From Armatimonadota bacterium (GTDB lineage: Bacteria; Sysuimicrobiota; Sysuimicrobiia; Sysuimicrobiales; Sysuimicrobiaceae): a stretch of 45,911 nucleotides of DNA. Location: contig JANXBY010000071.1 of the NCBI GenBank assembly GCA_025060455.1, positions 1 through 45,911 of the forward strand, in the 5' to 3' direction. How positions within the stretch are numbered: the stretch's first letter is position 1; each line of letters starts with the position of its first letter. The notes beneath the pieces are model-generated. The model saw only the letters and a program-made list of their open reading frames with translations. It searched no databases and was not told where the DNA came from. The position numbers and the translations under genes are program-made. Shown here piece by piece: positions 12,573 through 21,995 of the stretch.

Positions 12573-12606
12573 TTGACAGACAGCCGGCGACGTGGCAGGT
12601 TAGGCA
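12573..12606 (+). promoter_or_regulatory. candidate promoter and operator region of the GntR/oxalate operon
   Basis: A perfect TTGACA (12573-12578) is followed after 17 bases by a weak -10-like CAGGTT (12596-12601); TAGGCA (12601-12606) is an alternative. Just downstream, CCGAT (12614-12618) and ATCGG (12629-12633) form an inverted repeat with a 10-base centre, immediately before the GTG of the GntR gene. This would be well placed for autoregulation. The -10 match is poor and the operator is inferred from symmetry only. Confidence 0.45.
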
Positions 12607-12641
12607 CGAAGAACCGATCATCAGACCAATCGGGGAGTCTG

Positions 12642-13373
12642 GTGCCCTCCGCCGCGCTGGAACCGATCCGCCGCACGCGGGTCTATGAGCAGGTCGCGGC
12701 CCGCATCCAGCAGCTCATCCTCGACGGAGAGCTGCGGCCCGGCGACCGGCTGCCCACGGAGCGAGAGCTGGCGGAGCGCTTCCAGGTGAGCCGCAGCTCG
12801 GTGCGGGACGCCATCCGGGTGCTGGAGCTCATGGGCCTGGTGGAACCCCGACAGGGCGAGGGCACGGTGGTGCGGGACCTGAGCCCCGACGCGGTGGTCA
12901 CTCCTCTCGCCTCCCTCCTCGTCCGGAGCCGGGACCTGCTGGCAGACCTCCTGGACGTCCGCAAGATGATCGAACCGCACCTGGCGGCCCGGGCTGCCGT
13001 CCACGCCACCGAGCAAGACGTCCAGCGCCTGGAGGCCATCCTGGAGCGTCAGCGGGTGAAGGCCGCCGCGGGCGAGCTGGCGGTGGAGGAGGACTCGGAG
13101 TTCCACTACACCATCGCCACCGCCGCCCGTAACCAGGTCATCCTGCGGATCCTGGACGTCCTCATGGACCTGTTGAAGACCAGCCGGGAGCGGTCGCTGC
13201 AGGTCCCAGGTCGTCTCCAGAGGTCCCTGGAGGGGCACGCGCGGATTCTGGAGGCGATCCGGCGGCGGGACCCGGCCTCCGCGGAGGTGGCCATGCGGCG
13301 CCACCTGGAGGAGATCGAACAAGTCCTTGGGCAGGCCGTGTCCCGGAAGCGGCCGGCAGCCCGGGGGAGGTGA
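12642..13373 (+). CDS. GntR-family (FadR/FCD-type) transcriptional regulator
   Basis: The 243-residue protein has an N-terminal winged helix-turn-helix (about residues 10-80: YEQVAARIQQLILDGELRPGD, LPTERELAERFQVSRSSVRDAIRVLE). The all-helical FCD ligand domain follows. Metal/ligand residues are recognisable in EFHYTIATAARN, EGHARILEAI and MRRHLEEI. FCD regulators typically sense small organic acids. The GTG at 12642 follows GGGGAG by 4 bases. It is directly upstream of the oxidoreductase genes on the same strand (58-base gap, no promoter seen), so it most likely controls that operon in response to its substrate. This is inference from context. Confidence 0.9.
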   Translation: MPSAALEPIRRTRVYEQVAARIQQLILDGELRPGDRLPTERELAERFQVSRSSVRDAIRVLELMGLVEPRQGEGTVVRDLSPDAVVTPLASLLVRSRDLLADLLDVRKMIEPHLAARAAVHATEQDVQRLEAILERQRVKAAAGELAVEEDSEFHYTIATAARNQVILRILDVLMDLLKTSRERSLQVPGRLQRSLEGHARILEAIRRRDPASAEVAMRRHLEEIEQVLGQAVSRKRPAARGR

Positions 13374-13431
13374 GCCGGACGAGACGGGATCCTGGGCGGT
13401 GCCAATCCTCGAGCAAAAAGGAGGACCACGG

Positions 13432-14610
13432 ATGATCAAGCGGGTCGAGATCAACTACCGGGGGATCTTCCAGAAGAACCTCGCGAAGAAGATCGGGGGC
13501 GACATCGTGATGATCGCCGCCCGCATGGGCCAGGTGGGATTCTCCAACGGCCGCTACAGCGACGCCCCCGAGCGGAACGGCATCCCCTGCAAGTACTTCG
13601 CCTTCGTGTCCCCGGACCTCTCGGAGGAAGAGCTGGAGGCGGAGTGCGGGGCGAAGCTGGACATCGACGAGGCCAACATCTCCGTGGTGCTGGACGACAC
13701 CATGGTCAAGGGCGTGGAGCCGTGGGCGTGGCACGGTGTCCGGCCCATCAACGAGAAGGTGGTGCCCTACGGGCACATGCTGATCGTGTCCCGCCGGCGG
13801 CCGGAGGAGCTGGTTCGCTTCATGGCGCGCAAGCCCTACCCCTACTACCTGGCCCTCCTGGAGGGGGACGCCAGCTTCGCCGGGCTGTGGGTGTACCGGG
13901 ACGACCTGACGCACGAGCGGGTCCTGGGTGCCATCGCAGCCCTGGACCCGCAGCTCCTGAGCATTGAGGCGGTGAAGGGCTACCTCTGGGACAAGACCCA
14001 CGAGGAGCACCGGGTGGAGGCGGCGCAGAAGGCCTTCGAGTCCGTCCGCCACAACATCCACGAGGTGACCCCCCTGCAGGGCATCGACTGGCCGTACGAG
14101 ATCCCGAAGCTGCCAAAGTGGCATGAGTTCTCGGAGGGCGTGGTGGTGAAGGCCGTGCCCCGGGAGTTCCACCTGGGGCCCAAGGGCCAGTCCCGCAACC
14201 AGCTGTTCAAGCGCGGGACCACCAAGTCCCAGCGTCCCGTGGTGCGGTTCGACCTGTGCACCAAGTGCACCCTGTGCTGGCTGGAGTGCCCGGACCAGTG
14301 CTTCGACCCGACCCCGGACGGGTACTACGACATCGACTACGAGTACTGCGTGGGCTGCGGCAAGTGCGCGGAGGTCTGCCCCGTGCAGGAGTGCATCGTG
14401 ATGGTGGACGAGCTGGCCTTCGAGGACAACCGCAGCCCCTGGGAGCACTGGAAGCGTGACCCCGAGGGCTACGTCCGGTGGGCGGAGGAGAAGAAGGGCA
14501 AGCACCGGGTGCTGCCCAACGTGGTGACCGGGACCGGCGAACGGGTGGTGGAAGTGGAGCCGGTCCCTGTGGGGGGCAAGCCCAAGCCGGCCGCCCGGGC
14601 GGGCGCCTAA
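13432..14610 (+). CDS. oxalate oxidoreductase-like gamma-delta fused subunit (two 4Fe-4S ferredoxin domain)
   Basis: This is the electron-transfer subunit of a 2-oxoacid:ferredoxin oxidoreductase. Residues about 1-210 form a divergent gamma domain (FSNGRYSDAPERNGIPCKYF, VVLDDTMVKGVE). It lacks the usual glycine-rich GRGGQG start of pyruvate oxidoreductase gamma subunits. Residues about 265-330 are a bacterial ferredoxin domain with two CxxCxxCxxxCP clusters (CTKCTLCWLECP and CVGCGKCAEVCP). A 50-residue tail follows. A gamma-delta fusion in the order delta-alpha-beta is the arrangement I recall for the Moorella oxalate oxidoreductase. AAGGAGG lies 7 bases before the ATG. It is first of three genes, 21 bases before the alpha gene. 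Confidence 0.85.
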   Translation: MIKRVEINYRGIFQKNLAKKIGGDIVMIAARMGQVGFSNGRYSDAPERNGIPCKYFAFVSPDLSEEELEAECGAKLDIDEANISVVLDDTMVKGVEPWAWHGVRPINEKVVPYGHMLIVSRRRPEELVRFMARKPYPYYLALLEGDASFAGLWVYRDDLTHERVLGAIAALDPQLLSIEAVKGYLWDKTHEEHRVEAAQKAFESVRHNIHEVTPLQGIDWPYEIPKLPKWHEFSEGVVVKAVPREFHLGPKGQSRNQLFKRGTTKSQRPVVRFDLCTKCTLCWLECPDQCFDPTPDGYYDIDYEYCVGCGKCAEVCPVQECIVMVDELAFEDNRSPWEHWKRDPEGYVRWAEEKKGKHRVLPNVVTGTGERVVEVEPVPVGGKPKPAARAGA

Positions 14611-14631
14611 CGGTCGAAAGGAGGGTCGAGG

Positions 14632-15855
14632 ATGGCTGTCGCTCAACCTGTCGGGGTGTACGAACGGGAGGACCTGCTGACCGGTTGCCAGGCGGTGGCG
14701 GAGGGGATCCGGCTGGCCAACGTGGACGTCATCTCCGCCTACCCCATCCGTCCGTACACGGAGGTCATGGACGCGATCTCCAAGATCATCGCGGACGGAA
14801 AGCTGGTCGCCGAGTACATCGTGGCGGACAGCGAGCACTCCCAGTTCGAGATCGTGAAGCACGCGGCGTCTGTCGGCGCGCGGGCCTTCGCGGGGTCCAG
14901 TGGAACCGGCTGGATGTACGGGTTCGAAGCCCTGGTGGTGACCGCCACCGACCGCCTGCCGGTGCTGTTCCTGGTGGGAAACCGGGCCCTGGACGACCCC
15001 GGGGCGTTCGGCGTGGAGCACAACGACGCCCTGGCCATCCGGGACATGGGCTGGCTGCTGTGCTGGGTGGCCACCGCCCAGGAGGCCCTGGAGCACGTGC
15101 TGCTGGGATACCGGATCGCGGAGGACAAGCGGGTGATGATGCCCATGGCACTGGCCATGGACGGCGCCTTCCTCACCCACTCCCAGCACATCGTGCGCAT
15201 CCCCTCCCAGGAGGCGGTGAACCGGTTCCTGCCGCCCTTCGACCTGGCGGAGCGGCGCTTGCACCCGGACAACCCCGTGTCCATCGCCCCCCAGGTGAAC
15301 GAGGACTGGGTGATGGAGATCCGCCGGCAGAACTGGGAGGCGGCGCGGCGGGCGCGCGGGGTCATCGTCCAGGCCTACGAGGAGTTCAACCAGGTCTTCG
15401 GGGAGCGGTACAAGCCCCCATACTACTTTGAGGAGTTCATGACGGACGACGCCGAGGTGGTGTTGATCGGCATGGGGACGGTGGCCATGCCCGCCCGGAC
15501 CGCCGTGCGCCGGCTCCGGGAGCAGGGGCACCGGGTGGGATACGTCAACCTGCGGTGGTTCCGGCCCTTCCCGTCCGTGGAACTGCGGGAGTCCCTCCGG
15601 CGATTCAAGGCGGTGGGGGTCGTCGACCGGGACTTCGCCCACGGCTCCCCGGACGACGGCGGGGTGCTGCTGCACGAGATCCGGTCGTGTCTGTACCCCG
15701 CAAGGGAGCGGCCGGCGGTCGTGAACTTCATCACGGGACTCGGAGGCCGGGACGTCTCCATCCAGGACGCCATCCGGATGTTCGAGATCACCCAGGAGGC
15801 GGCCCGGAAGGAGCGCCTGGACGGGTTCGTCACCTGGGTGGGCGTGCGCGAGTGA
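14632..15855 (+). CDS. oxalate oxidoreductase-like alpha subunit
   Basis: The 407-residue protein is the alpha subunit (domains I and II) that lines the active site and helps bind thiamine pyrophosphate. Where pyruvate oxidoreductases have YPITPS, this protein has AYPIRPYT, with Arg40. Further on are Glu68, Arg118, Asp121 and Phe126 in LVGNRALDDPGAFG. From memory, Moorella oxalate oxidoreductase uses Arg31 and Arg109 to bind oxalate and Asp112/Phe117 in its switch loop, with Glu59 as the cofactor-activating Glu. Every one of these is offset by exactly nine residues here. This strongly favours oxalate, or a very similar dicarboxyl substrate, over pyruvate. AGGAGGG precedes the ATG. Confidence 0.88.
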   Translation: MAVAQPVGVYEREDLLTGCQAVAEGIRLANVDVISAYPIRPYTEVMDAISKIIADGKLVAEYIVADSEHSQFEIVKHAASVGARAFAGSSGTGWMYGFEALVVTATDRLPVLFLVGNRALDDPGAFGVEHNDALAIRDMGWLLCWVATAQEALEHVLLGYRIAEDKRVMMPMALAMDGAFLTHSQHIVRIPSQEAVNRFLPPFDLAERRLHPDNPVSIAPQVNEDWVMEIRRQNWEAARRARGVIVQAYEEFNQVFGERYKPPYYFEEFMTDDAEVVLIGMGTVAMPARTAVRRLREQGHRVGYVNLRWFRPFPSVELRESLRRFKAVGVVDRDFAHGSPDDGGVLLHEIRSCLYPARERPAVVNFITGLGGRDVSIQDAIRMFEITQEAARKERLDGFVTWVGVRE

Positions 15856-15869
15856 AGGAGGAGGGGAAC

Positions 15870-16868
15870 ATGGCGACTGCGGACAAGGTGCTCGTGTACG
15901 ACCGCATCAAGGGGGTCAAACAGATCCCCCTGGAAGAGTTTTACACCTCCGGCCACCGCACGTGCCAGGGCTGCGAGTCGGCCACCGTGATGCGGCAGTT
16001 CATCAAGGCCGCGGGGCCCCGGACGGTGGTGGCCGGGTCCACAGGCTGCATGTACGTGGCCAACACCAGCTACATGACGACCCCCTGGATTGTCCCCTGG
16101 ATGCACACCCAGCTGGGTGCCGGGGGCTCGTCCGCGGTGGGGATGGCCGCGGGGCTTCGGGCCCTCATGCGGAAGAACCGGATCCCGCAGGAGAAGATCA
16201 ACGTGATCTCCTTCTGCGGAGACCTGGGCGGCGGGGACATGGGACTGTCGGGGATCTCCGGAGCTCTGCAAACGGACTACGACCTGCTCATCATTATGTA
16301 CGATAATGAGTCCGCGGCCAACACCGACATCCAGGCCACCGGGCTGACCACCTGGGGGGCCCAGACGACCTTCAGCCCCGTGGGGAAGGTGGAACGGATC
16401 ATGCACCGGCGGTGGAAGAAGAACGTAGCGGCCATGCTGGCGGTGGGGCACCCTAACTGCCGGTACGTGGCCACCGCCTGCGCCACCTACCCGCCCGTGG
16501 ACTTCCTGAACAAGGTCCGCAAAGCCTTGAGCATCGGGGGGCCGACCTTCATCCACACCTACGACCCCTGCCCGAAGGGGTGGGACTTCCACCCCCGCTA
16601 CTCGCACGAGCTGGGTGAGCTGGGCGTGCGGTCGGGCCTGCTGCCCCTGTACGAGATCATCGACGGACAGGTGGTGTACACGTACGACGCCCGGAAGACG
16701 GGCAAGGGCCGGATCCCCGTCCGCGAGTATCTGACGAAGCAGGGCCGGTTCGCCCACCTGACGGAGGAGGATATCGCCTACATCCAGCGCATGGTGGACG
16801 AGATGTGGGACGAGTGGGAGGTCCCGGGAGTGGCGCCCTTCCGCGGCACGCTCAAGGTTTCCGCGTGA
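15870..16868 (+). CDS. oxalate oxidoreductase-like beta subunit (TPP-binding)
   Basis: The 332-residue protein is the thiamine pyrophosphate-binding beta subunit. The TPP motif starts at GDLGGGDMGLSG and ends at YDNESAANTDIQATG. Cysteines for the proximal 4Fe-4S cluster lie in RTCQGCESATV, GSTGCMY and YDPCPKGW. With the alpha and gamma-delta subunits it would form an enzyme splitting oxalate to two CO2 and passing two electrons to ferredoxin; coenzyme A is not needed in the known oxalate enzyme. AGGAGGGG lies 3 bases before the ATG and the gene begins 14 bases after alpha ends, so all three are one operon. Confidence 0.88.
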   Translation: MATADKVLVYDRIKGVKQIPLEEFYTSGHRTCQGCESATVMRQFIKAAGPRTVVAGSTGCMYVANTSYMTTPWIVPWMHTQLGAGGSSAVGMAAGLRALMRKNRIPQEKINVISFCGDLGGGDMGLSGISGALQTDYDLLIIMYDNESAANTDIQATGLTTWGAQTTFSPVGKVERIMHRRWKKNVAAMLAVGHPNCRYVATACATYPPVDFLNKVRKALSIGGPTFIHTYDPCPKGWDFHPRYSHELGELGVRSGLLPLYEIIDGQVVYTYDARKTGKGRIPVREYLTKQGRFAHLTEEDIAYIQRMVDEMWDEWEVPGVAPFRGTLKVSA

Positions 16869-16975: not shown

Positions 16976-17983
16976 ATGGGGCTCGTGCGCAAGGCCTCGC
17001 TGACCCTGTGGATCGTGTGTGTCGTAGGGCTGCTGGGCTCTGGGGTCTGGGGCGCCCCGGCCTGGCAGCCCAACCGTCCCGTGGAGTGGACGGTCCCCGC
17101 GGGGACGGGCGGTGGTGCAGACCAGCAGGCCCGCCTGATGGCGCCGCTCATCGAGAAATACCGGCTCTCCCCTCAGCCCTTCATCCCGATCAACCGGCCC
17201 GCGGGTGCGGGTGCTCAGGCGTTCCTCTGGATGATCGACAAGACGGGGGACCCGCACACCATCCTGATCACCCTCGACAGTCTGTTCGCCACACCCGCGG
17301 CGCAGGTGATCCGGAAGCGGGACGGCTCGCGGTTCACCTGGCGGGACCTGTCGCCCATCGCGCGGCTGCTCCTCGACCACTTTGTCCTCTGGGTCCACGC
17401 CGAGTCGCCCTACCGGACCCTGGACGACTTCGTCCGTGCGGCGAAGGCAGGCCCGCCGGGAAGGCTGAAGATGGCGGGGACGGGCTCCAAGCAGGAGGAC
17501 GAGATCATCATGGTCATGCTGGAGCAGGCGTGGGGTGCCAAGTTCACCTACGTCCCCTTCCCCGGCGGTGGGGCGGTGGCTGCGGCCCTGGTGGGCAAGC
17601 AGGTGGACTTCACGGTGAACAACCCCATCGAGGCCGTAGGACACTGGGAGGCAGGTCGGGTCCGTCCGCTCGCCATCTTCGCCTCTGAACGAGTCCGGGT
17701 GGGCAAGTGGGGAGAGATTCCCACCATGAAAGAGTTGGGCTATCCCCTCGAGTATCAGATGCTGCGGGGGATCTTCGGCCCGCCCCAGATGCCCCCGGAA
17801 GCGGTCGCGTTCTACCAGGAGGTGTTCCGGCGCGTGCTGGACACCCCGGAGATGGAGGACTTTATCGAGCGCGGTGCGTACACGAAGGCGTACCTGACGG
17901 GACGTGAGTTCCTTCAGTGGCTTGAGCGGAAGGACGCCCAGGTGCGCACCCTGATGGACAAAGCGGGCTGGCTGGCTAAGTAG
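16976..17983 (+). CDS. tctC: tripartite tricarboxylate transporter substrate-binding protein (TctC/Bug)
   Basis: The 335-residue secreted protein has a signal peptide (hydrophobic core LTLWIVCVVGLLGSGV, cleavage near VWGAP). The TctC fold follows: RPVEWTVPAGTGGGADQQAR, the acid-binding loop region AGTGSKQEDE, YVPFPGGGAVAAALVGKQVDF and GIFGPPQMP. Such proteins capture carboxylates outside the inner membrane and hand them to TctAB. There is no lipobox cysteine, so it is predicted to be soluble in a periplasm. It is encoded right after the oxalate-type oxidoreductase, which suggests that its ligand is the enzyme's substrate. This is inference. Confidence 0.9.
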   Translation: MGLVRKASLTLWIVCVVGLLGSGVWGAPAWQPNRPVEWTVPAGTGGGADQQARLMAPLIEKYRLSPQPFIPINRPAGAGAQAFLWMIDKTGDPHTILITLDSLFATPAAQVIRKRDGSRFTWRDLSPIARLLLDHFVLWVHAESPYRTLDDFVRAAKAGPPGRLKMAGTGSKQEDEIIMVMLEQAWGAKFTYVPFPGGGAVAAALVGKQVDFTVNNPIEAVGHWEAGRVRPLAIFASERVRVGKWGEIPTMKELGYPLEYQMLRGIFGPPQMPPEAVAFYQEVFRRVLDTPEMEDFIERGAYTKAYLTGREFLQWLERKDAQVRTLMDKAGWLAK

Positions 17984-18014
17984 CGGGCCTCGGGGAGGAA
18001 AAAGGGGGCCGGGG

Positions 18015-18488
18015 GTGCGGAAGGCTGGGCTGACGTTCGCGGTGGCGATGGTGCTAGCCGGGGTAGTGCTCCTACGGGAAGCCACCCGGCTTCCCACCGG
18101 GTGGACAGCCTCTGGCCCTGGTCCCGGCTTCTTCCCCTTCTGGTTGGCAGCGGGCTTCACCGTCAGCGCCTTCGCGGTCCTCCTGCGTGAGTGGACTGCG
18201 AACCAGGGCAAGGGGGAGCGATTCCTGCCGGAGGGGGCTGGGAAGCGCATCGCGGTGGTGTTCCTGCCCATGGCGGCCGTGGTGGGCTTGCTCCACTACC
18301 TGGGTGTGTATATGGGCGGGCTGCTGTACCTGCTCGGCTACAGCCGCCTCGTGGGACGCCACTCGTGGCCGACGGTCCTAGCGGTGAGCGTTGGGGTCCC
18401 CCTGACGCTGTTCTTTGTGTTCGAACGTTGGTTCCTCATGCCGATGCCCAAGGGGATTGTTCTGGAGTGGCTCCTGTACGGAAGGTAG
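18015..18488 (+). CDS. tctB: tripartite tricarboxylate transporter small membrane subunit TctB
   Basis: The 157-residue protein has four hydrophobic segments (LTFAVAMVLAGVVLL, GFFPFWLAAGFTVSAFAVLL, RIAVVFLPMAAVVGLL and a split C-terminal pair ending TVLAVSVGVPLTLFFVF). It also has the family's GPGPGFFPFWLA near residue 35. It is the small integral subunit needed for TctA function. The GTG start at 18015 follows GGAGGAAAAAGGGGG. It lies 31 bases after tctC and 3 bases before tctA. Confidence 0.85.
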   Translation: MRKAGLTFAVAMVLAGVVLLREATRLPTGWTASGPGPGFFPFWLAAGFTVSAFAVLLREWTANQGKGERFLPEGAGKRIAVVFLPMAAVVGLLHYLGVYMGGLLYLLGYSRLVGRHSWPTVLAVSVGVPLTLFFVFERWFLMPMPKGIVLEWLLYGR

Positions 18489-18491
18489 CGT

Positions 18492-20033
18492 ATGGATTTC
18501 ATTCGGACGTTCCAGGATCTGCTGTACGGGCTCGCGGTGGCCGCATCTCCGCAGAACCTCCTCGTGGCCGTGATCGGCCTCCTGTTGGGGACCGCCATCG
18601 GTGTACTACCGGGGTTGGGCGGGACGAACGGAGTCGCCCTGCTCCTCCCCCTCACCTTCCACCTGAGCCCGACCGCGGCCATCATCTTGCTGAGCTGCGT
18701 ATACTGGGGGGCCATCTTCGGTGGGGCCATCACCTCCATCCTGTTCCGAATTCCTGGAGAACCGTGGTCGGTGGCCACCATGTTCGACGGCTACCCCCTG
18801 GCCCGACGAGGGAAGCCTGGGGTGGCATTGACGGCTGCCTTCGTGGCGTCCTTCATCGGAGCGCTTATCTCCATTGTGCTGTTCACCTTCTTCGCACCGC
18901 CCCTGGCCGAGATGGCCCTGAAATTCGGACCGCCCGAGAACTTCGCTGTCCTGCTCCTTGCCTTCGCCAGCATCGCGGGGCTCGAGGGGGGAGATCCCGT
19001 CAAGGCGTTGACCATGACGTTTCTCGGCCTCCTGTTGGCGACCGTGGGGTTTGACATCGTCAGCGGGACGCCTCGGATGACGTTCGGGTTGGTCGCCCTG
19101 CAGAGTGGAGTCAGCTTCGTCGTCATCGCCATCGGACTGTTCGGGATCGGCGAGATCCTCTTGACCGTAGAGGAGAAACTCCGGCTCGACGGCCTGAAAG
19201 CCCGCCTCAGCTTCCGCGAGGTGTGGGAGACCTGCCGGATGTTCCGGAACTACATTGGGACCCTGATCCGCAGCGCCCTCCTGGGATTCTGGATCGGGAT
19301 CCTCCCGGGGACAGGCGCTACGCCCGCCTCCTTCATGGGCTACGGGATGGCCCGGCAGTTCAGCCCTCGCGGTTCTCGGTTCGGGACCGGAGAGGTTGAG
19401 GGGATCGTGGCGCCCAACACGGCCGCCCATGCAGCGGGAATCGGTTCCCTGCTACCCATGATCACCCTGGGCATCCCCGGTTCCCCGACTGCCGCGGTGA
19501 TGCTGGCAGGCCTGTTCATCTGGGGTCTGAACCCAGGTCCCCTCCTCTTCCAGGAGAACCGGGAGTTCGTCTGGGGTTTGGTCGGTTCGATGTACCTGGC
19601 CAACGTCCTTGGGGTCCTGATGGTGCTGACCATGGTGCCGCTCTTTGCTGCCATCGTGCGGATTCCGTTCGCCATCTTGGCACCCCTGATCGTCATCCTG
19701 TGCAGCGTGGGTGCTTACGCGGTCAACAACCAGGTGTTGGATCTGTGGATCATGCTGGGCTCGGGGCTGGCGGGGTACCTGTTCAAGAAGCTCGGTTATC
19801 CCCTAGCGCCGTTGGTGGTCGCCCTGGTGCTGGGCGACATGACGGAGCAGGCGTTCCGTCAGAGCCTCATCATGGGCCAGGGCTCGCCGGCCATCTTCTT
19901 CACGCGGCCCATCGCGGCGTTCTTCGTCGTGACGGCTCTCGCGATCTTCCTCTTCCCCTTCGCCCGCAGCGCCCTGCGGCGCGCCCGGGGCGGCGCGGTC
20001 GCCGCAGAGGCACCAGGGACCGCGGGATCCTGA
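18492..20033 (+). CDS. tctA: tripartite tricarboxylate transporter large membrane subunit TctA
   Basis: The 513-residue polytopic protein is the permease of the secondary, ion-coupled TctCBA system. The two halves are related. Each carries the conserved loop: GVLPGLGGTNGVALLLPLTF in the first half, and GILPGTGATPASFMGYGMAR in the second. About 10-12 hydrophobic segments are visible. With tctC and tctB it forms a complete uptake system for a small carboxylate. Codon third positions look a little less G/C-biased than in the adjacent oxidoreductase genes, which would fit separate acquisition, though I have not measured it. Confidence 0.92.
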   Translation: MDFIRTFQDLLYGLAVAASPQNLLVAVIGLLLGTAIGVLPGLGGTNGVALLLPLTFHLSPTAAIILLSCVYWGAIFGGAITSILFRIPGEPWSVATMFDGYPLARRGKPGVALTAAFVASFIGALISIVLFTFFAPPLAEMALKFGPPENFAVLLLAFASIAGLEGGDPVKALTMTFLGLLLATVGFDIVSGTPRMTFGLVALQSGVSFVVIAIGLFGIGEILLTVEEKLRLDGLKARLSFREVWETCRMFRNYIGTLIRSALLGFWIGILPGTGATPASFMGYGMARQFSPRGSRFGTGEVEGIVAPNTAAHAAGIGSLLPMITLGIPGSPTAAVMLAGLFIWGLNPGPLLFQENREFVWGLVGSMYLANVLGVLMVLTMVPLFAAIVRIPFAILAPLIVILCSVGAYAVNNQVLDLWIMLGSGLAGYLFKKLGYPLAPLVVALVLGDMTEQAFRQSLIMGQGSPAIFFTRPIAAFFVVTALAIFLFPFARSALRRARGGAVAAEAPGTAGS

Positions 20034-20045
20034 CGGGAGCCCGGC

Positions 20046-20858
20046 TTGGGGATCGTCGCCTTCACCCGTGAACTGGGCAGCCTCGGCACCTTCATCGCGG
20101 AGGAGCTGGCCCGCAGGCGTGGGTATCGGTTTGTCCGCCGGGAGATCCTCGAGGCGGCTGCCCGCACGAGTCCTCTGACCGAAGACGAGCTCACGCGGCT
20201 GGTGGAAAGTCCACCTGGACTCTGGGAGCGGCTCAGCCTGCCGGCCCGCCGCCACTTCTACCACGTGGCAGCCCGGGTGCTGGAGTACGCGCAGGCGGAT
20301 GACGTGGTGATTTTGGGGCGCTGGTCCACCATGCTCCTGCGAGGAGTGCGGCACGCGGTCCGGGTGCGGGTGTGCGCTCCGCTCCCCATCCGTGTCGAAC
20401 GGCTGGCGGAGCGCCTGGGCGTGTCCAGGTCAGAGGCCCAGGCCATCGCGGAACGGTACGATCATGGCGTGCGGGCGCGGATCCGCCAGTTCTTCGACGT
20501 GGAGTGGGAGGACAGCGACCTGTACGACCTCGTGATCAACACGGAGCGGATCGGCGTGGAGCGTGGGTGCGAGCTGGTGGAGCACCTCGTGGACAGCCCG
20601 GAGTTCCAGCCCGATGAGGCCTCCCGCCAGGAGGTCCGGGACCGATCACTGGCCGCGCGCGTCCAAGAGATGCTGAAGTCCGATGACCGTTTGGGACACG
20701 TGGACCTGCACGTGACCGCCCGACAAGGCACAGTGACTCTGGAGGGCGTGGTGTTCGGGCCGGAGGAGCGACGGGTGGTGCTGGAGGTGGTGAGATCCGT
20801 CCCCGGTGTGGCCGCGGTGGACGACCGGCTCACTGTGGCCCGCATGCCTATCCGGTGA
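20046..20858 (+). CDS. cytidylate-kinase-like protein fused to a BON domain
   Basis: Residues about 1-190 resemble the cytidylate kinase-like family (PF13189 type): TRELGSLGTFIAEELARRRGYRFV takes the place of a P-loop, followed by ADDVVILGRWSTMLL and VERLAERLGVSRSEAQAI. The P-loop is degenerate, with no GKS/T. Residues about 205-268 form a BON domain (AARVQEMLKSDDRLGHVDLHV, ARQGTVTLEGVVFG, VRSVPGVAAVDDRL), usually a lipid- or ligand-binding module. The TTG start at 20046 is the earliest supported start, 12 bases after tctA. Kinase-like proteins of this family often accompany carboxylate transporters, where they may act as sensors. The function is unknown. Confidence 0.7.
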   Translation: MGIVAFTRELGSLGTFIAEELARRRGYRFVRREILEAAARTSPLTEDELTRLVESPPGLWERLSLPARRHFYHVAARVLEYAQADDVVILGRWSTMLLRGVRHAVRVRVCAPLPIRVERLAERLGVSRSEAQAIAERYDHGVRARIRQFFDVEWEDSDLYDLVINTERIGVERGCELVEHLVDSPEFQPDEASRQEVRDRSLAARVQEMLKSDDRLGHVDLHVTARQGTVTLEGVVFGPEERRVVLEVVRSVPGVAAVDDRLTVARMPIR

Positions 20859-21137: not shown

Positions 21138-21995
21138 TTGACGACCGTGGGGCGTCCGGCTTCCAAAGTCCGCGCGGCGGTGCGCGTTGTCCGCGGTGAC
21201 CGGCTGGAGGTTCGTACGGACTTTCTGGCCACGGAGGAGCCCCTGGAGGTGCGGCTTGCCGCAGGTCCCCACCGCAGGACGGTGGCGGTCACCATGCGGA
21301 CGCCTGGGCACGACTTCGAGCTCGCCGCGGGGTTCCTCTTCAGCGAGGGGGTGGTTCGCGGGCGGGAAGACATTGCCCGCATCGCGTACTGCCTGGACTC
21401 GGACCTTGCTGGAGAGCAGACGTACAACGTGGTCACCGTGGAACTCCGCCGGGACGACCTGCCGGAGCTGGGTTTCCTGGAGCGCCACTTCTTCACCACC
21501 AGCGCCTGCGGGGTGTGTGGGAAGGCCAGCCTGGACGTCCTTTGGGCCCGTGGGTGTGCGCCTGTGAACGGCGGGGTGCAGATCGATCCTCGGCTTCTAG
21601 CCGAGCTGCCCGACCGCCTGCAGCAGGCTCAGAGCCTGTTCGCGCACACGGGAGGCCTGCACGCGGCGGCCCTGTTCGACGGCGAAGGGCAGCTCGTGGC
21701 CCTTCGGGAGGACGTCGGCCGGCACAACGCCATGGACAAGCTGGTGGGGTGGGCTCTGTTGGAGGGCAAGCTCCCGTGGCGTGACTACGTGGTGATGGTG
21801 AGCGGACGTGCCAGCTTCGAGCTCGTGCAGAAAGCCGTGGTGGCGGGTGCACCGGTGTTCTGCGCGGTTTCCGCGCCCACAAGCCTCGCGGTGGAGGTGG
21901 CCAAGGCTTTCCGGGTGACCCTGGTCGGCTTTTTGCGCGGCGACCGGTTCAACGTCTACGCTGAACCGTCCCGGATTACAGGGATGTCGTCCTAG
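21138..21995 (+). CDS. fdhD: formate dehydrogenase accessory sulfurtransferase FdhD
   Basis: FdhD moves sulfur from a cysteine desulfurase to the molybdenum/tungsten bis-guanine dinucleotide cofactor of formate dehydrogenases. The 285-residue protein has the family marks MRTPGHDFELAAGFLFSEG, the CxxC in TTSACGVCGKAS (Cys124 and Cys127), GGLHAAALF and REDVGRHNAMDKLVG. The annotated TTG start at 21138 gives a normal length. A formate dehydrogenase must be encoded elsewhere in the genome. Placement beside an oxalate-type oxidoreductase is sensible, because oxalate metabolism in acetogen-like organisms feeds CO2/formate chemistry. The gene ends at a strong terminator. Confidence 0.93.
   Translation: MTTVGRPASKVRAAVRVVRGDRLEVRTDFLATEEPLEVRLAAGPHRRTVAVTMRTPGHDFELAAGFLFSEGVVRGREDIARIAYCLDSDLAGEQTYNVVTVELRRDDLPELGFLERHFFTTSACGVCGKASLDVLWARGCAPVNGGVQIDPRLLAELPDRLQQAQSLFAHTGGLHAAALFDGEGQLVALREDVGRHNAMDKLVGWALLEGKLPWRDYVVMVSGRASFELVQKAVVAGAPVFCAVSAPTSLAVEVAKAFRVTLVGFLRGDRFNVYAEPSRITGMSS

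Follow-up and report, generated by a model that had tools for sequence, protein, structure and literature searches.

The question raised by this locus is whether a 2-oxoacid:ferredoxin oxidoreductase encoded in DNA of an Armatimonadota bacterium is an oxalate oxidoreductase (OOR), and what the operon around it is for. The stretch analysed (the window) is 45,911 nucleotides long. On its plus strand, genes for a GntR regulator and for the gamma-delta, alpha and beta subunits of the enzyme lie in that order at 12642-16868 and are followed by TctC, TctB and TctA. The regulator of the GntR/FCD family (12642-13373; Pfam GntR 80 bits, FCD 108 bits) has a GTG start with GGGGAG upstream. The fused gamma-delta subunit (13432-14610), the alpha subunit (14632-15855) and the beta subunit with its TPP domain (15870-16868) follow with intergenic gaps of 58, 21 and 14 bases, counted from GntR to beta. 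The original prediction of a GntR-regulated delta-alpha-beta order with a fused gamma-delta subunit is thus real, and this order is the one we take to be that of the Moorella OOR genes. The unit had been placed as starting at 12573, where a conserved promoter-like hexamer, TTGACA, lies; GntR more likely starts at the GTG at 12642. The unit also runs past beta, since 107 bases on it continues with a tripartite carboxylate transporter at 16976-20033, made up of a TctC-type periplasmic solute-binding protein (16976-17983; Pfam TctC 94.8 bits), which is a conserved neighbour of the enzyme in relatives, the small membrane subunit TctB (18015-18488; Pfam TctB 67.9 bits) and the large membrane subunit TctA (18492-20033; Pfam TctA 498 bits). 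After TctA, the gene at 20046-20858 encodes a fusion of a cytidylate kinase-like domain with a BON domain, and FdhD is next at 21138-21995. FdhD was considered as a link to formate and dropped, as related loci did not show it as a conserved neighbour.

The reading preferred here, with a probability of about 0.8, is that the operon serves to import and oxidise oxalate, controlled by a dedicated GntR switch, and that its enzyme is a CoA-independent oxalate:ferredoxin oxidoreductase, of a sister subfamily of OOR, which feeds respiration and not acetogenesis. The conserved region with inferred promoter and operator function (12573-12631) contains TTGACA at 12573-12578 and the putative GntR operator GATCATCAGACCAATC at 12616-12631. 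At these latter positions, between the hexamer and the GntR start, four genomes of the genus share a conserved GATCATCRGACCAATC, each with exactly one perfect copy; it is a good candidate operator for GntR. A search for a FadR-type TNGTNNNACNA operator found nothing.

Assignment of the enzyme was based on the OOR of Moorella thermoacetica (MtOOR; PDB 5c4i, 5exd and 5exe) and on NCBIfam models NF045790-NF045792. The best PDB match of the alpha subunit was the 5c4i alpha chain at 340 bits, against 211 bits for the Methanosarcina pyruvate:ferredoxin oxidoreductase 9bt4, and that of the beta subunit was the 5c4i beta chain at 273 bits, against 186 bits for the Methanosarcina pyruvate enzyme; for gamma-delta the margin was small (63 bits for Moorella OOR, 57 bits for the Methanosarcina enzyme). 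The two best fold matches of the predicted alpha model were OOR chains with TM scores of 0.92-0.93 on the target (5c4i_A at the top, 0.93), and the eight best PDB folds for the gamma-delta AlphaFold model (pLDDT 84) were all OOR chains, with TM scores of 0.72-0.80 on the target. Cysteines 276, 279, 282, 286, 306, 309, 312 and 316 of gamma-delta, eight residues for two [4Fe-4S] clusters, were invariant in 46 sequences, and beta Cys32, 35, 60 and 234, for one further cluster, align to MtOOR Cys24, 27, 52 and 225 and were invariant in all sequences compared; between them these residues would provide for three [4Fe-4S] clusters, as MtOOR has. For each of the three subunits an NCBIfam OOR model was the best-scoring family, at a score well below its equivalog cut-off (alpha 384 of 500 bits, beta 328 of 590, delta 87 of 230). 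The window alpha has about 40% identity to that of Moorella OOR, and the window gamma-delta subunit is longer, at 392 aa against 315 aa.

Phylogenetic trees of the alpha subunit were built from 111, 46 and 26 sequences. Alpha subunits of the window type formed one clade (100/99), and OOR, represented by MtOOR and a copy from a relative of the same order (G030), formed another; the two together stood apart from the pyruvate, phenylglyoxylate and other types, on a joint branch that the careful trees supported at 100/100, and they stayed sisters when the tree was rooted with fused pyruvate enzymes. The same groups were recovered with beta, so that neither subunit grouped inside the pyruvate or aromatic oxoacid clades. 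In the relative G030, an OOR above the NCBIfam cut-off is encoded at L060:668-3042 (G030:C126) and a window-type copy lies on another contig. The predicted OOR-type identity has good support from the best PDB match for all subunits, the 100/100 sister clade, the diagnostic residues and the oxalate-specific neighbours in relatives described below. Since the window enzyme lies outside the OOR clade, misses all three NCBIfam OOR cut-offs and differs at plug-loop residue Asp116, it is, judged by sequence, a sister subfamily of OOR and not Moorella OOR in another setting. The copy of the window genus did not group with copies from other families of the same phylum but was joined by those of Chloroflexota, Acidobacteriota, Myxococcota and Binatota, which suggests horizontal transfer.

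We infer oxalate as the substrate from genes that neighbour the enzyme in related loci. Species genomes were scanned with two peptide patterns, which gave 282 encoding stretches, and neighbours were counted in 93 loci drawn from the best 80 of the 282 plus the loci of the host phylum. Formyl-CoA:oxalate CoA-transferase (Frc) and/or an oxalate/formate antiporter was encoded beside the enzyme genes in 14 of the 93 loci, from several lineages, and neither in the other 79, where many contigs are short. Frc was above the cut-off in L091, L093, L115, L138, L146 and L151 (610-712 bits, cut-off 504), with contig-end fragments in L100 and L150; the antiporter was above its cut-off in L058, L066, L087, L091, L093, L136 and L149 (455-599 bits, cut-off 335), and an incomplete copy in L090 (321 of 335 bits) was counted as well. 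When the loci with oxalate genes were mapped on the alpha tree, 11 changes, by gain or by loss, were required, with at least 6 of them forced by well-supported branches, and the nearest relatives of the window by path include L087, L090, L091 and L093, all of them loci with oxalate genes. Within the host phylum (43 genomes), five antiporter genes above the cut-off, plus fragments in G041 and G042, make seven, of which five lie within about 5 kb of a window-type enzyme; no Frc above the cut-off was found in this phylum, and no oxalate-specific gene in the window itself.

TctA and TctC adjoin the enzyme in 17 of the 93 loci and GntR in 51. In L146 the genes stand in a row: TctC, TctB, TctA and GntR, then a TPP enzyme and the gamma-delta, alpha and beta subunits, then a reductase-like gene, then Frc. 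In the part of the literature open to our search, no paper on the transport of oxalate by Tct systems stood out. The TPP enzyme found beside Frc in L100, L115, L146 and L151 was considered as an oxalyl-CoA decarboxylase (Oxc); it reached at most about 245 bits where the Oxc models require 557 and 739, and was left out of the oxalate evidence because of scores so far under the cut-offs, although it is possibly a divergent oxalyl-CoA decarboxylase. Its closest models (L100:5067-6785, L115:2710-4428, L146:4954-6672, L151:584-2338) were PRK05858 and those of 2-hydroxyacyl-CoA lyase, with scores under every cut-off. CaiB-family genes that are not Frc (L117, L126, L158) and MFS genes under the antiporter cut-off (L112, L124, L140) were likewise left out.

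The alpha subunit has the predicted motif AYPIRPYT, whose YPIRP core has been described as unique to MtOOR (PMC5020499). Arg40, Glu68, Arg118, Asp121 and Phe126 align, as had been proposed, to MtOOR Arg31, Glu59, Arg109, Asp112 and Phe117, and the numbering is shifted by nine throughout. As marks of OOR, Arg31, Asp112 and Phe117 proved diagnostic, but Glu59 and Arg109 were common to all 30 alpha subunits of pyruvate or other type that were sampled. Ten diagnostic positions (MtOOR numbering: Arg31, Tyr33, Gln62, Gly79, Gly82, Asp112, Gly115, Phe117, Gly118 and Glu120) were common to the window clade and OOR and absent or rare in alphas of pyruvate or other type. The window differs from Moorella OOR by Ala for Thr110, Asp for Pro113 (window Asp122) and Ala for Asp116 (window Ala125), of which the last two had been overlooked in the original prediction. 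Ala replaced Asp116 in 51 of 51 members of the window clade, against Asp in 30 of 30 OORs. The plug loop reads (D/N)RTLDPPGDF in 30 of 30 OORs, and in the window clade NRALDDPGAF in 139 of 140 alphas and NRALDDPGSF in one, with some genes counted at more than one locus. In MtOOR, Arg31 and Asp116 have been tied to oxalate handling and are reported to drive a bait-and-switch movement of this loop (PMC5020499). In the window clade an acidic residue of the loop stands at MtOOR position 113 in place of 116, and Asp122 might take over the role of Asp116. Residues 121-126 had pLDDT below 50 in the alpha model, which was predicted without partner subunits, a value that would fit a mobile loop.

The Ala at MtOOR position 116 and the Asp at 113, both in the active-site loop, speak for a different substrate, namely a small acid other than oxalate (glyoxylate or mesoxalate, for example) that would be bound by the same two arginines, oxalate not being the main one. 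Tct transporters are moreover generic carboxylate carriers, and in several SAR202-type loci the nearby gene is an FMN alpha-hydroxyacid oxidase-like one and not an oxalate gene. Repeated linkage to Frc and the oxalate/formate antiporter, in the window's own subclade as elsewhere, makes this explanation unlikely. The FMN oxidase-like gene lies downstream of the enzyme in L144, L147, L148, L154, L156 and L158 (SAR202-type and other Chloroflexi), and most of these loci also have a sulfoacetaldehyde acetyltransferase-like TPP gene upstream.

It is very improbable that the enzyme is an ordinary pyruvate or aromatic 2-oxoacid:ferredoxin oxidoreductase with a chance arginine in its YPITP motif. The general family and fold agree with such an enzyme, and a Methanosarcina pyruvate enzyme ranks second among the structures; the four-subunit enzyme of Methanosarcina acetivorans (9bt4) has homologous subunits, the same fold, the TPP domain and the cluster ligands. 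Unlike the window enzyme, 9bt4 has YPITP, separate gamma and delta subunits and no equivalents of Asp112 and Phe117, and belongs to a separate clade. The arginine (Arg31) was present in 51 of 51 tree members of the window clade and in 30 of 30 OORs and in none of the 30 others, all of which have Thr, and the window alpha lies outside the sampled pyruvate-type and phenylglyoxylate-type clades at 100/100. PadG of NADH-dependent phenylglyoxylate dehydrogenase is of the same superfamily but lies in the non-OOR group of the alpha tree, with the window alpha outside its branch; against the PadG model NF045764 the window alpha scored 234 of 700 bits, under the cut-off. Three further POR_N proteins are encoded in the window genome (G000:C17, C9 and C76), of which the C17 one lies in the non-OOR group. 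Least probable of all is a main role apart from a growth pathway, for example in low-potential ferredoxin balance or in detoxifying internally made oxalate, for which it speaks that many relatives have no recognised oxalate transporter nearby; against it, the window genus has a regulator before and an uptake system after the enzyme, an arrangement kept across several genera.

The preferred reading, oxalate oxidation that feeds respiration, is consistent with the distribution of the clade. The 282 relatives found by the scan carry the labels of at least a dozen phyla, and mislabelled or contaminated MAGs are possible among them; the labels include Acidobacteria, Chloroflexi with SAR202, Delta-, Gamma- and Alphaproteobacteria, Binatia, Methylomirabilota, Thaumarchaeota, Thermoplasmata, Nitrospinota, Gemmatimonadetes and others. 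The clade was present in 18 of 400 sampled genomes of the phylum labelled Chloroflexota. Haem-copper oxidases were encoded in 34 of 40 carrier genomes; in the window genome, which is 95% complete, four proteins were above the haem-copper oxidase cut-off and a CdhC-type acetyl-CoA synthase (CdhC/ACS) was not found. HRbin32 and an Armatimonadota-labelled MAG belong to the window genus and are presumably hot-spring organisms of Candidatus Sysuimicrobiota. The clade thus occurs mostly in oxygen-respiring microbes of soil, sea and hot springs, and differs from Moorella OOR in its Tct or antiporter and GntR neighbours and in its mostly oxidase-bearing genomes. In the original prediction, a regulated copy in a new genomic setting was expected to widen the range of an enzyme studied essentially only in acetogenic Moorella. 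The relatives described here belong to the sister subfamily, and OOR itself is also wider than Moorella: among 399 genomes sampled from one Bacillota-type phylum, 28 (L159-L186) had an OOR alpha subunit above the cut-off.

In the proposed pathway, TctCBA most likely takes up oxalate, which Arg40 and Arg118 (MtOOR Arg31 and Arg109) would hold beside thiamine pyrophosphate; the alpha-beta-gamma-delta enzyme would then free two CO2 without CoA, and two electrons would pass through the three [4Fe-4S] clusters to ferredoxin. In a non-acetogenic, oxidase-bearing host the electrons probably go to NADPH or to the respiratory chain. In Proteobacteria, a ferredoxin-NADP reductase-like gene adjoins the enzyme in 8 loci (L131, L136, L139, L143, L146, L149, L150 and L151; assigned by reading the sequence, with no NCBIfam match for one and a weak match for another) and a ferredoxin gene in 4, and the adjoining reductase-like genes suggest that electrons there reach NADPH. 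CoA-dependent oxalate degradation (Frc, Oxc and OxlT), which has the same presumed substrate and whose Frc/OxlT-type genes adjoin the enzyme in some relatives, yields formate and CO2, whereas the window enzyme would yield CO2 and reduced ferredoxin.

A 2023 survey of oxalotrophy covered oxdC, oxc, frc and oxlT only, and its main text contains no oxidoreductase and no Moorella (PMC10192776); a 2025 survey presents OOR as belonging to certain anaerobes (PMC12654022). From a literature search that took in few subscription papers or preprints, so that an earlier description is possible, the window clade, sister to the Moorella enzyme, may so far be uncharacterised. The chances are about even that it is a second oxalate:ferredoxin oxidoreductase branch, found in aerobic soils, seas and hot springs across at least a dozen phyla of Bacteria and Archaea, forming a large, unrecognised and respiration-powering oxalate sink in which the acid of the switch has moved by three residues along the plug loop. 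Oxalate oxidation by this clade would mean that an entire class of oxalate consumers has gone unnoticed, since its genes score under the OOR models and probably bear the names of pyruvate or 2-oxoacid enzymes. Oxidase-bearing cells would then be using a type of enzyme that is known from strict anaerobes, and the two natural versions of the switch loop, when compared, would make the bait-and-switch mechanism directly testable.
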